Below the pieces are notes generated by a model. The model was not told the origin of the DNA, did not search any database, and was given only the letters and a program-made list of their open reading frames with translations. From contig CANPXD010000008.1 in assembly GCA_947585615.1 (NCBI GenBank), forward strand, positions 1-40,690: a stretch of 40,690 nucleotides of DNA, given 5' to 3'. Shown here in pieces: positions 2,621 through 7,095 of the stretch. The first letter of the stretch is position 1. Every line of letters begins with the position of its first letter. The DNA comes from an uncultured Clostridia bacterium (GTDB taxonomy: Bacteria; Bacillota; Clostridia; Oscillospirales; Acutalibacteraceae). The position numbers were made by a program, and so were the translations under genes.

Positions 2621-3562
2621 CTAAAACGAATCCATTTCCTTAAGATACTGCGCAATAAAGTCGGTTGATTTTTCCGCGCCTTCCGTACATAGGTGGTTCT
2701 CGTCATAAAAATCTGTTTTTCCGTCGATTCCGATTTCAGCAAGGTAATCGTTCATTTCAAGAAATATTAAATTGTTTTTATCCATATAATCCCTTACAGT
2801 CTGTGAATCTGATTTTGTCCATTTTGCTGCCGGAGATTTAAAAAACACAACTTGAATTCCGTTTTCTCTGCACAGTTCGGTAATATTTGAAATTGCCTCG
2901 TCTGTTTCAGGTAGTACCCCCCCCCGAGGGGTTTTTTCGTCCTCTGTCTGAAGATACTTTATTTCAACCTCTTTGATATGTTCACGGCCTATATATCCTC
3001 TTGAGGAATAATCCAGCGTTGTAAGATAATACGTTACATCATCTATCCAAAGTCTTTTCCAATTTGAATGTGTAAAAAAAAGAGGGAAGCCGTACTTAAC
3101 GATTTCTTTTATATCTCCGTTTAAAACCGTATTTAATGAAACTATTTTTTCAGGAGTAAGCTTTGTTGGCACATAATTCCATGCCAATTCACGTTCCTCA
3201 AGATTTTTATTTTCATTGAAGAAAGCGCTTATTTCAACCATAACCACATCGGGTTTCTGTCTTTTAAGAGCTTCTTGCATATAGTAATAGGATATTGTCA
3301 GATTTTGACTGCTCGATCCTAAATCATAGGAAGATATACCGTATTCCTCCGTTAATTTCTGTGAGTCAACGGTGCAGAACATTTGACTTGGACCGACAAA
3401 CAGAACATCCAAGCTGTTTTCAGGCAATTCGTAAAAACCTTTTACCATTTTTGTGGAATCATAATATTTCGGAAGGAAAATCATCTGCAGAACCGCAAAA
3501 ACAATACAGAAAGACAATACAAATGAAATGATTTTACAACTGTTTTTAAAAAATTTTTTCAT
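2621..3562 (-). CDS. Membrane-anchored SGNH/DltD-like protein, paralogue A, with in-frame G9 tract
   Basis: About 313 residues. One N-terminal hydrophobic helix (residues ~10-30) should anchor it, leaving the rest outside the cell. After it comes LDVLFVGPSQM, a GxS block with the candidate nucleophile Ser near residue 59, and at the C-terminus TDFYDENHL, the Asp-x-x-His of an SGNH triad. This is the layout of DltD and PatB partners of MBOAT transferases. I start at the second Met (MKKFFK) because GGAG lies 7 nt before it. A G9 run on the coding strand encodes Arg-Gly-Gly-Val near residue 213; loss or gain of one G would remove the C-terminal His. More A/T-rich than flanking housekeeping genes. 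Acceptor is unknown. Confidence 0.8.
   Translation of the reverse strand: MKKFFKNSCKIISFVLSFCIVFAVLQMIFLPKYYDSTKMVKGFYELPENSLDVLFVGPSQMFCTVDSQKLTEEYGISSYDLGSSSQNLTISYYYMQEALKRQKPDVVMVEISAFFNENKNLEERELAWNYVPTKLTPEKIVSLNTVLNGDIKEIVKYGFPLFFTHSNWKRLWIDDVTYYLTTLDYSSRGYIGREHIKEVEIKYLQTEDEKTPRGGVLPETDEAISNITELCRENGIQVVFFKSPAAKWTKSDSQTVRDYMDKNNLIFLEMNDYLAEIGIDGKTDFYDENHLCTEGAEKSTDFIAQYLKEMDSF
2917..2925 (-). repeat. G9 homopolymer (coding strand) in SGNH paralogue A
   Basis: Nine consecutive C on the plus strand, nine G in the coding sense, within CGG-GGG-GGG-GTA codons. With ten G the frame reaches a TGA four codons after the tract starts; with eight G it runs about 38 codons to a TAA. Both lose the DENHL motif. 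Homopolymer G tracts of this length are classic slippage sites. Confidence 0.85.
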
Positions 3563-3580
3563 CTGCATTCTCCTTTAAAT

Positions 3581-4519
3581 TCAAAATGAGTAGTTTTCTT
3601 TAAGATATTCTGCAATAAAATCAGTCGCCTTTTCGGCACCCTCTACGCACAAATGCTGTTCGTCATAAAAATCTGTTTGTGTGTCAATGCCCATTTCATC
3701 AATAAAGTCATTCATTTCAATAAATTTATAATGATTCCCGAGCATATATTCTTTAACTGTTTTGGAATCTCCTTTTGTCCATTCAGCCATTGGGGATTTA
3801 AAGAATACAACAATACAACCATTTTCGTCGCACAACTCGGCAATTTCAGAAATTGCCTTGTCTGTTTCAGGTAGTACCCCCCCCCGATTTGATTCAGCGG
3901 CAGAATCAAGATATGCCATCTGAACAGCCTTTATATGTTCCCTGCCGTAATAGCCTCTTGTTGAATAATCCAGCTTTTTAAAATAGTAAGTAATATCCTC
4001 AGATTCAGCAATGTTCCATCTCGTATGGTATTCAAAAAGAGGAAAAGCAAATTTTAAAACCTTTTTAGCATCCCCATCCAAAATTGTATACATTGATTTT
4101 AATTTCTCAATGGTCAACTTCATAGGAACATATGTAAATGCAAAGGTTCTGTCGGTTATTTCAGAATTTTTTTCAAAAAAAGACCCAACTTCCACCATTA
4201 CGACCTTTGGATTCTGAACCTTTAACGCTTCCTGAAGATAATAATACGTGCTGGTAAGACATTGTGATGCTGCGCCGAAATCAAATGCTTTTATTCCGTA
4301 ATTTTCAGTCAGCTTTTGTGCATCTACGGTGCAATACATCTGGCTTGAACCCAGAAATAAAACATCAATGCTATTTTCTTCAAGTTCATAAAGAGCGCTT
4401 CCCATTACAACCGAATTATCTAATTTAGGAATGAGAACAGCCTGTAATCCGGCAAAAATCAAACAAAAGACCAATACAAATGAAATGATTTTGCAGCCGG
4501 TGTTTAAAACTTTTTTCAT
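3581..4519 (-). CDS. Membrane-anchored SGNH/DltD-like protein, paralogue B, with in-frame G9 tract
   Basis: About 312 residues, a clear tandem paralogue of the genes on both sides. Same layout: N-terminal hydrophobic helix, LDVLFLGSSQMYCTVD-type GxS block (LFLGSSQM), long middle with a YYLQEAL helix, and C-terminal TDFYDEQHLCVEGAEK with the Asp-x-x-His pair. GGAG 7 nt upstream favours the second Met (MKKVLN). It carries the same RGGVLPETD codons as paralogue A, with an identical G9 run. Twelve nt separate it from each neighbour. By analogy with DltD it may pass or hydrolyse an acyl group outside the membrane next to the MBOAT protein; the substrate is unknown. Confidence 0.8.
   Translation of the reverse strand: MKKVLNTGCKIISFVLVFCLIFAGLQAVLIPKLDNSVVMGSALYELEENSIDVLFLGSSQMYCTVDAQKLTENYGIKAFDFGAASQCLTSTYYYLQEALKVQNPKVVMVEVGSFFEKNSEITDRTFAFTYVPMKLTIEKLKSMYTILDGDAKKVLKFAFPLFEYHTRWNIAESEDITYYFKKLDYSTRGYYGREHIKAVQMAYLDSAAESNRGGVLPETDKAISEIAELCDENGCIVVFFKSPMAEWTKGDSKTVKEYMLGNHYKFIEMNDFIDEMGIDTQTDFYDEQHLCVEGAEKATDFIAEYLKENYSF
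3877..3885 (-). repeat. G9 homopolymer (coding strand) in SGNH paralogue B
   Basis: Nine C on the plus strand at the codons equivalent to the tract in paralogue A. About 28 nt around it are identical between the two genes (plus-strand 3862-3887 region against 2902-2927), although the genes are clearly diverged elsewhere. Ten G would give an early TGA, as in paralogue A. Confidence 0.85.
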
Positions 4520-4537
4520 TTGCATTCTCCTTTAAAT

Positions 4538-5473
4538 TCAAAAAGAGTAATTCTCTTTAAGATATTCTGCGATAAAATCAGTTGTTTTTTCCGCTCCCGA
4601 AACATTAAGATGAAGTTCATTTGCAAAATCAGTTTTGCTGTCTATACCTATTTCATAGATATAGTCGTTAAAATCTATAAAATCAAGATTGTTTTGATTG
4701 ATAAATTCCTTTACTGTTTTTGAATCATTTCTTGTCCATTCAGCAACAGGGGACTTAAAAAACACAACATCTATATTGTTTTCTTTGCAAAGAGCTGCAA
4801 TATTTGAAATTGCTTTAGCTGTATCCTCCGGAACCTCGCGCACTTCTCCATTTCCCGGCGACAAATACTTGATTGTCTGTTCGTTTACATCTGTTCCCTT
4901 ACAAAAACCTCTTAATGAAAAATCAGGATCTGTAAAATAATATAACAGATCTTCTTTTCCCAAAATATTCCATCTTGAATGATAAGCAAGTAGAGGGATC
5001 GAATACTTAATTGCCGTTTTTATATTACCGCCCGATACCTCAAGCATTGAATCCCATTTTTCCTTATTCCAATCCATAAGTGCGTAGGTCCAACCCATCT
5101 CTGCATCTCTTATATCTTTGTTCTGCAGAAAAAACGATGTAACTTCTACCATAACAACCTTGGGCTTTTGAAGCTTTAATGCTTCTTGGAGATAATAATA
5201 CGTACAGGTAAGATACTGCGACGCCGCTCCGAAATTAAAGGATGATATTCCGTATTCCTCAGTCAATCTTTTGGAATCAACAGTACAATACATCTGACTT
5301 GGTCCCATAAACATAACATCAATACTGTTTTCATCAAGCTGTTTAAGACCGTTGACCATTAACACGGAATCGCCGTACTTTGGCAGCAAGACGGCCTGAA
5401 GTCCGGCAAAAATCAAACAAAATGCCAATACAAATGAAATAACCTTACAGCTTGCTTTTAAAAATTTCTTCAT
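4538..5473 (-). CDS. Membrane-anchored SGNH/DltD-like protein, paralogue C, without G tract and with Asp-to-Asn change
   Basis: About 311 residues, paralogous to the two downstream genes. It keeps the N-terminal hydrophobic helix and the VMFMGPSQMYCTVDS block with the candidate Ser, and the final His in FANELHLNVSGAEK. However, the Asp of the DxxH motif in paralogues A and B aligns with Asn here, so a standard SGNH triad may be incomplete. The segment holding RGGVLPETD in A and B reads REVPEDTA and has no G run. I start at the ATG at 5473, 14 nt after the MBOAT stop; the ribosome site is weak, so coupling to the MBOAT gene is likely. A TTG two codons upstream is the alternative start. Confidence 0.78.
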   Translation of the reverse strand: MKKFLKASCKVISFVLAFCLIFAGLQAVLLPKYGDSVLMVNGLKQLDENSIDVMFMGPSQMYCTVDSKRLTEEYGISSFNFGAASQYLTCTYYYLQEALKLQKPKVVMVEVTSFFLQNKDIRDAEMGWTYALMDWNKEKWDSMLEVSGGNIKTAIKYSIPLLAYHSRWNILGKEDLLYYFTDPDFSLRGFCKGTDVNEQTIKYLSPGNGEVREVPEDTAKAISNIAALCKENNIDVVFFKSPVAEWTRNDSKTVKEFINQNNLDFIDFNDYIYEIGIDSKTDFANELHLNVSGAEKTTDFIAEYLKENYSF

Positions 5474-5487
5474 TGACAATCACACCG

Positions 5488-7095
5488 TTAAAATTCAAAA
5501 TAAATGAAATTCGAGCTGAGATACTGCGTTCCGTATGCTCCGAAAACGATAAGCGTAAAAATGCACGCAAGGTAAAAAGCCATACGTATCGGATACGGCT
5601 TGCTTTCAATTTTTTCTCTTATGAAAACGCCCTTTTCGCGCAACAGGTCGACAAACAGCAGAACGCAAACGCAAAGAACAGTATATACCAATATATTTAT
5701 AATACTGCACTGGAGTGAATCGGCATTTGCAACCTCGACAAGCTGCCCAAGACCGAGTGTCCTGTCTGCAACAATTCTGACGAACATCTGTATGGCGTCT
5801 CCAAACGATTTTGAATTAAAGAACACCCAGGCAAAAATCATCAAAACGGTGCAACGCAGCGACTGGAAGATATGCCAGAACAGATTTTCTTCTCTGATTT
5901 TAAGCTTTGCTTTTATTTTATCGGTAAGCGGTTTGAAAATTTCTCCGCTAAAGATATAAATAAACTGGAGCAAACCGACTCCGAAAACATAATTAAAGCC
6001 TGCACCGTGCCATACGCCTATAAGCGTCCAGAGAATCAGCATACCAATATATGTAGGTATCTGCCTGCCTGCTTTTTTGCCGACCTTTTTTGTGAGCCAT
6101 TTGCCGAGATTCTGAAAAGCCTTTGATTTAAGAACAGGATAAAAAACATAATCCTTGAGCCACGCTCCGAGGCTTATGTGCCATCTCTGCCAGAATTCCG
6201 TTATATTTCTCGAGAAAAACGGCTGCCTGAAGTTTATCGGCATTTCAATTCCAAGCAGTTCGCCTATACCGAGTATAATGTCCATATAGCCTGAAAAATC
6301 GGCATAAATCTGAATTGCAAAACAAACAGCACCGAAGATAATCGCAAGTCCTGCATATTCGGTATAATTGGAGAATATCTCGTTTGTAATGACTCCCATC
6401 TGATCGGCAATACAAAGCTTTTTGATATAGCCCCATGTGATTTTCAGTACCGCGAGCTTGATTGAGTGAAAATCATGCTTTTTTCTTTCCTCGCTGCACA
6501 CCTGCGGCATAAGCTTTCCGTACCGGTTAAACGGTCCCTGCATAATTGACAGGAAAAACATCGCGTACAGAATAACCTTGAGAGGGTTTTTCTCTGCAGG
6601 AATTATTCCGCGCGAAACATCGACAATATACCCGATAAGCTGCAGTGAGAAATACGAGATGCCGAGCGGCAGAAAAATGTTTTCCGCTGTCCAAAGCGAG
6701 GTATTGAACGTATTGTTTATATTTACGGCAAAATGACCGTAATATTTGAACAGAAAAAGCAGACCGACATTTAAAACAACGGCAAGCGCCACCCATAAGC
6801 TCTGACGCTTTGTAAAATACTTTCTTTTTGCTTTTCTTTCTTCCTTGTCAACCTTACCCTTGTTTTCCGAAAGCCACTGCGCCTGCCTGTCCTTGAGCTT
6901 CTGGATCTGAAGCGCGGAAAAATATGTAGCAAGCGACAAACCGATCAGAATGAAAATCCCGTATACACTGAAACTTATGTAAAAAACGGCACTTGCGGCA
7001 AGCAGAACGATCCACTTCCATTTTTTCGGCACCGCATAGTAAAGAATGCAGGTAATGAATACAAAAAGCAAAAATTTAAAAGATGTAATAGCCAT
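5488..7095 (-). CDS. MBOAT family membrane O-acyltransferase (DltB/AlgI/PatA-like)
   Basis: 535 residues with about ten hydrophobic segments. MBOAT signatures are plain: NITEFWQRWHISLGAWLKDYVFYP near residues 298-320 and the invariant active-site His in TLIGVWHGAGFNYV (His ~363). An IYADFSGYMDI segment lies between transmembrane helices, as in AlgI and DltB. These enzymes take an acyl group from the cytoplasmic side and move it to a polymer at the outer face. It starts 4 nt after the VOC gene and is followed by the three SGNH genes, the usual MBOAT partners. The carrier protein two genes upstream suggests a thioester donor, as in Dlt. Acyl group and acceptor are inferred only. Confidence 0.93.
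   Translation of the reverse strand: MAITSFKFLLFVFITCILYYAVPKKWKWIVLLAASAVFYISFSVYGIFILIGLSLATYFSALQIQKLKDRQAQWLSENKGKVDKEERKAKRKYFTKRQSLWVALAVVLNVGLLFLFKYYGHFAVNINNTFNTSLWTAENIFLPLGISYFSLQLIGYIVDVSRGIIPAEKNPLKVILYAMFFLSIMQGPFNRYGKLMPQVCSEERKKHDFHSIKLAVLKITWGYIKKLCIADQMGVITNEIFSNYTEYAGLAIIFGAVCFAIQIYADFSGYMDIILGIGELLGIEMPINFRQPFFSRNITEFWQRWHISLGAWLKDYVFYPVLKSKAFQNLGKWLTKKVGKKAGRQIPTYIGMLILWTLIGVWHGAGFNYVFGVGLLQFIYIFSGEIFKPLTDKIKAKLKIREENLFWHIFQSLRCTVLMIFAWVFFNSKSFGDAIQMFVRIVADRTLGLGQLVEVANADSLQCSIINILVYTVLCVCVLLFVDLLREKGVFIREKIESKPYPIRMAFYLACIFTLIVFGAYGTQYLSSNFIYFEF

Follow-up and report, generated by a model that had tools for sequence, protein, structure and literature searches.

Genes and G tracts at the locus

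The window, that is, the whole 40,690-nucleotide stretch of DNA that was analyzed, comes from an uncultured Clostridia bacterium. Its minus strand carries a row of four genes, in which a membrane-bound O-acyltransferase (MBOAT) gene is followed by three paralogues named C, B and A. The gaps within the row are 8, 12 and 12 nt, and the four genes are presumed to form one operon headed by MBOAT.

2621..3568, minus strand: gene A, 315 aa, in frame at its G9 tract; DltD/PatB-like membrane-anchored acyltransferase/esterase of SGNH fold, the fold being assigned by homology to the model of B
2917..2925, minus strand: G9 tract of gene A, beginning at codon 215, flanked by C and T
3581..4525, minus strand: gene B, 314 aa, paralogous to A and likewise in frame at its G9 tract
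3877..3885, minus strand: G9 tract of gene B, beginning at codon 214, flanked by C and T
4538..5479, minus strand: gene C, third paralogue, 313 aa, without a tract; Asn where B has Asp288
5488..7095, minus strand: MBOAT (DltB-like) membrane-bound O-acyltransferase, Pfam PF03062, E 4.5e-11

The MBOAT protein matches the NCBIfam dltB model with an E value of 3e-41, which is under the cut-off of that model. At both tract sites the plus strand reads nine C, corresponding to nine G on the coding strand of A and B, and the two runs described in an earlier note on this DNA are thereby confirmed. The tracts begin at the same codon of the two paralogues (215 in A, 214 in B), as had been reported, are in the same phase and encode R-G-G-V. 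They are the only G or C runs of at least seven in the window, which has seven runs of five, one of six and these two of nine.

Genes A and B are 67% identical overall. Their longest identical stretch contains the tract and is exactly 28 nt long, in agreement with the earlier estimate of about 28 nt in otherwise diverged genes; in 2000 simple permutations this length falls at the 99.9% point. The identity may be due to gene conversion or to shared descent, which are indistinguishable here.

An alternative to a switch is that A and B simply conserve ordinary glycine codons at their G9 runs and that the frameshifted genes found elsewhere are decaying pseudogenes. It is in keeping with both genes being in frame at G9. 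However, GGG accounts for 5.6% of the 823 glycine codons in the 28 other genes of the window, and A and B match at 25 of 62 fourfold sites, so that the retention of GGG-GGG pairs in both genes is unexpected by chance. The alternative is considered improbable.

Against a switch, the tract is absent from paralogue C and from the closest SGNH homologue (50% identity), which is found in G078, another genome of the genus. A scan of named genomes found no close homologue of gene B. Viral contigs were tried as same-species copies. The 16 bases next to the tract were matched exactly in nine cases, all of them without a C9 run and judged to be unrelated.

Fold of the SGNH proteins and predicted slip products

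The predicted structure of B has the SGNH alpha/beta fold. The best Foldseek match of the model is DltD (6pfx, TM score by query length 0.45), and PatB is at rank 5. None of the SGNH genes matches Pfam at E 0.01, and a search of NCBIfam at E 1 gave no DltD model. Agreement with the DltD family is therefore in the fold alone and not in the sequence models, and the SGNH identity that had been proposed is right by predicted fold.

Residues G59, S61 and H291 of B are invariant in 25 aligned sequences and D288 is found in 24 of them. We take G59 and S61 to represent the Gly-x-Ser nucleophile motif, and the C-terminal D288 and H291 to be catalytic, as in the SGNH hydrolase superfamily. Gene C is the one aligned sequence with Asn in place of Asp288. 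The earlier description of C as a fixed third partner thus stands as regards the missing tract but is weaker as regards an ordinary partner, from which C may differ because of the Asn replacement; judged by its sequence, this non-switching partner may have lost or altered its activity.

Gain of one G gives a computed product of 220 aa in A and 219 aa in B, with the stop falling within a few codons as had been stated. Loss of one G gives 257 aa in A and 270 aa in B. The frame of A does end prematurely in this case, but at 43 residues from the tract start, not at about 38 codons. D288 and H291 (B numbering) are gone in all four slip products in silico, in accord with the claim that the C-terminal Asp and His are lost either way. 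In the model of B the G9 position lies in a loop directly before a helix, upstream of the conserved Asp-His. A change of one unit alters the product of both A and B, in silico only, as is characteristic of a contingency locus.

G runs in the genome of the window

The genome of the window (G000) comprises 1,984,645 bases in 125 contigs and is 96.65% complete. It has 51 runs of at least six G, 11 of at least eight and seven of at least nine, the G10 being counted once. When grouped by length, there are 40 runs of six to seven, four of eight and seven of nine to ten, which is no simple decay with length. Homopolymers of at least seven to eight G beyond chance, characteristic of poly-G contingency loci, are thus found here. 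The longer runs are as follows.

Runs of at least nine, in frame: genes A and B, an MBOAT gene (C62), an acyltransferase-3 gene (C86) and a BCCT transporter gene (C7)
Run of G10: DUF1796 gene (C61), frameshifted at the run
Run of G9, intergenic: C27, upstream of an LRR surface protein
Run of G8: acyltransferase-3 gene (C34), frameshifted at the run

The other three G8 runs (C2:21798, C68:1078 and C85:17) differ from the coding tracts in that they sit in palindromes resembling terminators.

MutS and MutL are present in G000 and in the three other tract-rich genomes, G078, G077 and G076, and are intact in G000. The tracts are therefore not due to a loss of mismatch repair. The presence of both proteins is a point in favor of ordinary, non-switching glycine codons. 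Campylobacter is not known to have MutS/MutL mismatch repair; because MutS and MutL are present here, slippage in these Clostridia may be slower than in Campylobacter.

Tracts in related genomes

The genus sample consists of 80 genomes, one per species, with that of the window included. A G9 run is present in 24 of them and absent in 56, many of which are incomplete. Runs of at least eight were listed in full for six genomes of the genus (G000, G078, G077, G076, G026 and G027). Flanking sequence was retrieved for the runs of the five relatives and for six G000 runs that lie outside the window. The first four, picked after their runs had been seen, form the pooled set; the pooled counts do not include G026 and G027, whose runs are for the most part non-coding, with other flanks, or debris. 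At positions 3331-3403 of locus L166 (G026 C38), 31, 11 and 14 consecutive G lie next to Ns and resemble sequencing debris, which calls for caution when poly-G runs are counted in draft genomes.

Such debris in some genomes of the genus, including the 31-G stretch near Ns and runs at contig ends in G037, is what would be expected if the G runs in general were a sequencing or assembly artifact, with poly-G arising from two-color chemistry. The runs of the window, however, keep the frame of conserved genes and have homologous sequence on both flanks, and the assembly of a second species also has an intergenic tract at the orthologous position. An artifact is scarcely credible as the general explanation.

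The pooled set contains 34 runs of at least nine (G000, 7; G078, 11; G077, 12; G076, 4), with 24 of G9, six of G10, three of G11 and one of G14. By Pfam, the larger classes are Acyl_transf_3 (8), LicD (3), IspD/CTP_transf_3 (3), MBOAT (2), GT2 (2) and DUF1796 (2). To these are added the SGNH genes A and B (by fold), one each of ATPgrasp_ST, Hexapep, YfhO and MptE-like genes, two intergenic tracts, and six others or without a match (BCCT, Orn_Arg_deC, DNA methylase, DUF6625, HpcH/HpaI and one unmatched). By our own grouping, which sets aside the MptE-like gene, the six others and the intergenic tracts, surface-glycan genes hold 25 of the 34 tracts.

Five tracts (at 4198, 6006, 14005, 14989 and 16856) lie within 12.7 kb of a single glycan gene cluster in L135 (G077 C2). 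Two adjacent unrelated genes in this cluster have the same tract followed by a near-identical 44-codon tail, a pattern that resembles duplication of a tract cassette. G077 C6 has a DNA methylase gene (N6_N4_Mtase), possibly for a phase-variable methyltransferase, that contains an in-frame G9 run with T...C edges (L136, 3471-3479). The runs of L067, L071, L074, L075, L082, L184 and L146 are close to gene ends, within the final 8-25 codons; slippage there would alter the tail only or join the next gene.

Frameshifts at the runs

A mechanical open-frame rule was applied to 38 runs of at least eight (41 minus the three palindrome runs) in the stretches around the runs of the four genomes. Nineteen of the runs are internal and in frame, nine are split at the run, eight are terminal or ambiguous and two are non-coding, which gives nine splits among 28 internal tracts. 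In the same stretches, 2 of 32 runs of G5-7 are split (30 internal, 25 others; Fisher p 0.017 against the tracts of at least eight), as are 7 of 323 runs of G4 (316 internal, 82 others; p 2.7e-7). One of the nine splits, a LicD gene in G077 C2 (L135, 6006), is doubtful, as its upstream piece spans the whole LicD model.

Eight split genes have an upstream and a downstream frame that cover consecutive portions of a single Pfam model, with the join at the run.

G000 C34: Acyl_transf_3, model positions 2-92 and 116-320
G078 C44: IspD, 3-54 and 66-220
G078 C99: GT2, 2-75 and 80-143
G077 C93: 3-149 and 142-323
G077 C104: 1-148 and 157-323, the downstream piece below the Pfam cut-off
G077 C22: YfhO, 7-648 and 665-834
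G437 C4, outside the genus: GATase_7, 2-46 and 46-122
G277 C4, outside the genus: 3-264 and 242-320, the downstream piece below the Pfam cut-off

The downstream pieces of two DUF1796 genes, in G000 and G078, have no Pfam match, and each resembles the protein of the other species. Homopolymer assembly could itself have produced some of the frameshifts. The pseudogene part of the alternative given above is disfavored, because frame breaks are commoner at long runs than at shorter ones and the split genes have long open reading on either side of the break.

Edges of the runs

When read on the G strand, 31 of the 34 pooled runs of at least nine are preceded by C and followed by T; among runs of five to seven in the same stretches the count is 4 of 59 (Fisher p 6e-17). 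The edges are found in both orientations: 11 of 11 tracts whose coding strand carries C have them, as do 18 of 21 whose coding strand carries G and both intergenic tracts. They are weaker in the other genus members, with one or two loci each, where 12 of 20 runs have them. In 398 genomes of the family CGGGGGGGGGT occurs 60 times, in 37 genomes, and the reverse, TGGGGGGGGGC, 16 times (summed by hand), an approximately fourfold difference; in G158 alone the counts are 11 and 0. The runs of G158, G437, G277 and others were found with a pattern in which C and T were fixed, so that their own edges prove nothing, and G158 counts toward the edge rule only through the comparison with the reversed sequence. 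Of two extra runs in G158 L204, one has the C...T edges.

Some process that recognizes sequence, for example a dedicated mutagenic mechanism, an insertion step or a binding protein, might make or keep G9 at chosen genes beyond drift and slippage, but this idea is tentative and rather unlikely. For PCR slippage, a Campylobacter study reports flanks to be without influence (PMC4965091).

Origin and length change of the tracts

The DUF1796 orthologues of G000 and G078 are about 69-70% identical in DNA and have their tracts at different sites, and these tracts therefore arose independently. An intergenic run, on the other hand, is orthologous in the two genomes, with G9 in G000 C27 (L120, 4753-4761) and G10 in G078 C8 (L129, 4273-4282). 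The two runs share the edges TTTCGC before and TTATCAG after, and lie 265 and 253 nt before the starts of orthologous secreted-looking LRR_5 proteins of 924 and 927 aa. A small conserved hairpin (GTGCGTTTTGCAC / GTGCGTATTGCAC) is situated about 30 nt ahead of the run. An Rfam search covering L202, L129 and the window found no RNA element that reached the gathering score; there is a sub-threshold match near the G000 intergenic tract (E 0.87).

Genome G158 has three intergenic copies that are 94-96% alike. All three have G9, and this uniformity would fit runs that do not switch. A copy of the BCCT gene in G076, about 94-96% alike to the gene of G000, is without the tract. The BCCT loci L304 and L305, which belong to two species, are about 95% alike over some 3 kb, yet 7 of 21 bases differ at the G9 run (by eye). 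Origin of a tract by clean insertion was rejected: 12 nt are missing from the tractless orthologue at one DUF1796 site only, whereas at the second DUF1796 site and in BCCT the run replaces other bases, so that there is no single rule. Besides the BCCT copy, a search of the genus for relatives of two further tract genes found a single distant acyltransferase (32%).

Tracts between promoter-like hexamers

There are 98 distinct runs of at least nine with enough flank, up to 37 of which, plus most of those of G158, come from the search that fixed the C and T edges. Promoter-like hexamers 15-19 nt apart flank 12 of the 98 runs. Shuffling of the flanks gives 3.6 +/- 2.0, and none of 300 shuffles reaches 12; the shuffle mean of 3.6 indicates that some of the 12 are due to chance. 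At least two of the promoter-type tracts (L131 and L186) lie inside genes. Seven of the 12 score at least 10 of 12, and downstream of six of these seven a secreted-like frame starts at 29-99 nt, the signal peptides being recognized by eye. Two of the six have TTGACA-18-TATAAT, both from one other genus. Neither L183, which is one of the best seven, nor L082 has a frame of 80 aa within 450 nt downstream.

In L176, L177, L193, L215, L061 and L078, all from other members of the family, runs of G9-G11 are situated between -35/-10-like boxes upstream of genes for secreted-looking proteins. The promoter-box tracts are possibly the transcriptional counterpart of the coding tracts. No promoter pair spans the run at G000 C27, at its G078 orthologue or at the G158 copy L202, and the tracts of A and B in the window are not of the promoter type.

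These results bear on whether slippage might occur in transcription or on the ribosome, giving each gene a fixed mix of full-length and truncated protein while the DNA remains unchanged. Nine-G runs can cause polymerase slippage. On this view a frameshift at the run would not inactivate a gene, and the frames seen allow it. Orthologous runs of G9 and G10, and lengths of 8-14, nevertheless imply change in the DNA over evolutionary time, and intergenic and promoter-like tracts have no use for frame slippage. Such an explanation is very improbable.

Proposed mechanism

Genes A and B are probably contingency genes for phase-variable surface modification by G-run slippage, and this is the reading with the best support. 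Slipped-strand phase variation had been proposed as a candidate in the earlier note, and the proposal is supported by the genome-wide set of tracts in surface-glycan genes, by frameshifts at the run, by the orthologous G9 and G10 and by the promoter-box tracts of relatives.

DNA polymerase would slip in the G9 run and add or drop one G. The frame would then be lost and the enzyme truncated, by computation, to about 220-270 aa without the Asp-His, until a second slip restored the frame. By analogy with the DltB-DltD and MBOAT-SGNH pairs, MBOAT would pass acyl groups through the membrane for A and B to attach to a surface glycan. A clonal population would then become a mixture of A+B+, A+B-, A-B+ and A-B- cells. 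The same device may operate at other surface loci in G000 and its relatives, as a translational switch in coding frames and, in the relatives, as a putative transcriptional switch between the -35/-10-like boxes of secreted-protein genes.

Comparison with known systems

DltB-DltD and MBOAT-SGNH are O-acylation pairs. The row in the window resembles them (DltD, PatB) in that an MBOAT gene is followed by genes of SGNH fold. It differs in having three SGNH paralogues per MBOAT, two of them with G9, and in showing no DltD sequence match.

Poly-G phase variation is well known in Neisseria, and porA of Neisseria meningitidis has a poly-G tract in its promoter, located in the promoter spacer. The G9-G11 runs of the relatives, predicted to lie between -35/-10-like boxes before secreted-protein genes, are similar to the porA type; the tracts of A and B are not in a promoter position, and the promoters of the relatives are predicted only.

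In Campylobacter, where poly-G phase variation is well known too, tract lengths are 53% G9 and 26% G10 (PMC6321876), and the tracts are mostly in surface-modifying genes, some ON and some OFF per genome sequence (PMC6321876, PMC4965091). The present set is like the Campylobacter phasome in its mode of G9 and then G10, in its surface-modification frames and in the mix of ON and OFF within a genome. It is unlike the phasome in that the hosts are gut Clostridia and not Epsilonproteobacteria, that MutS and MutL are present, and that the runs have C...T edges. The coding strand carries C in 11 of 32 coding tracts here, compared with 5% in Campylobacter (PMC6321876).

For the sortase-pilus genes of Bifidobacterium breve, a G11/G12 mixture has been measured (PMC9187656). 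The likeness is in G-tract slippage in a gut commensal; in B. breve it concerns one or two pilus clusters per genome, whereas here the set is spread over glycan genes. Among the open-access papers listed as best matches, none describes tracts of this kind in the clostridial group, which is not proof of absence.

The comparison supports a known mechanism in a new lineage, that is, poly-G variation of the Campylobacter/Neisseria type in gut Clostridia. Several uncultured species of gut Clostridia look like multi-locus poly-G switchers, and their target classes, surface glycans and secreted proteins, are those of Campylobacter and Neisseria. Poly-G switching is a possible source of surface diversity against phages, antibodies and competitors in this lineage. 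The loci with their predicted states form a list, and the question can be put to existing metagenome reads.

DNA polymerase I of the organism of the window is 83% identical to that of the uncultured Clostridia bacterium isolate Lapin-030, a rabbit isolate by its name, and 69% identical to that of Eubacterium coprostanoligenes ATCC 51222. Because of these relatives the organism is presumably a gut commensal.
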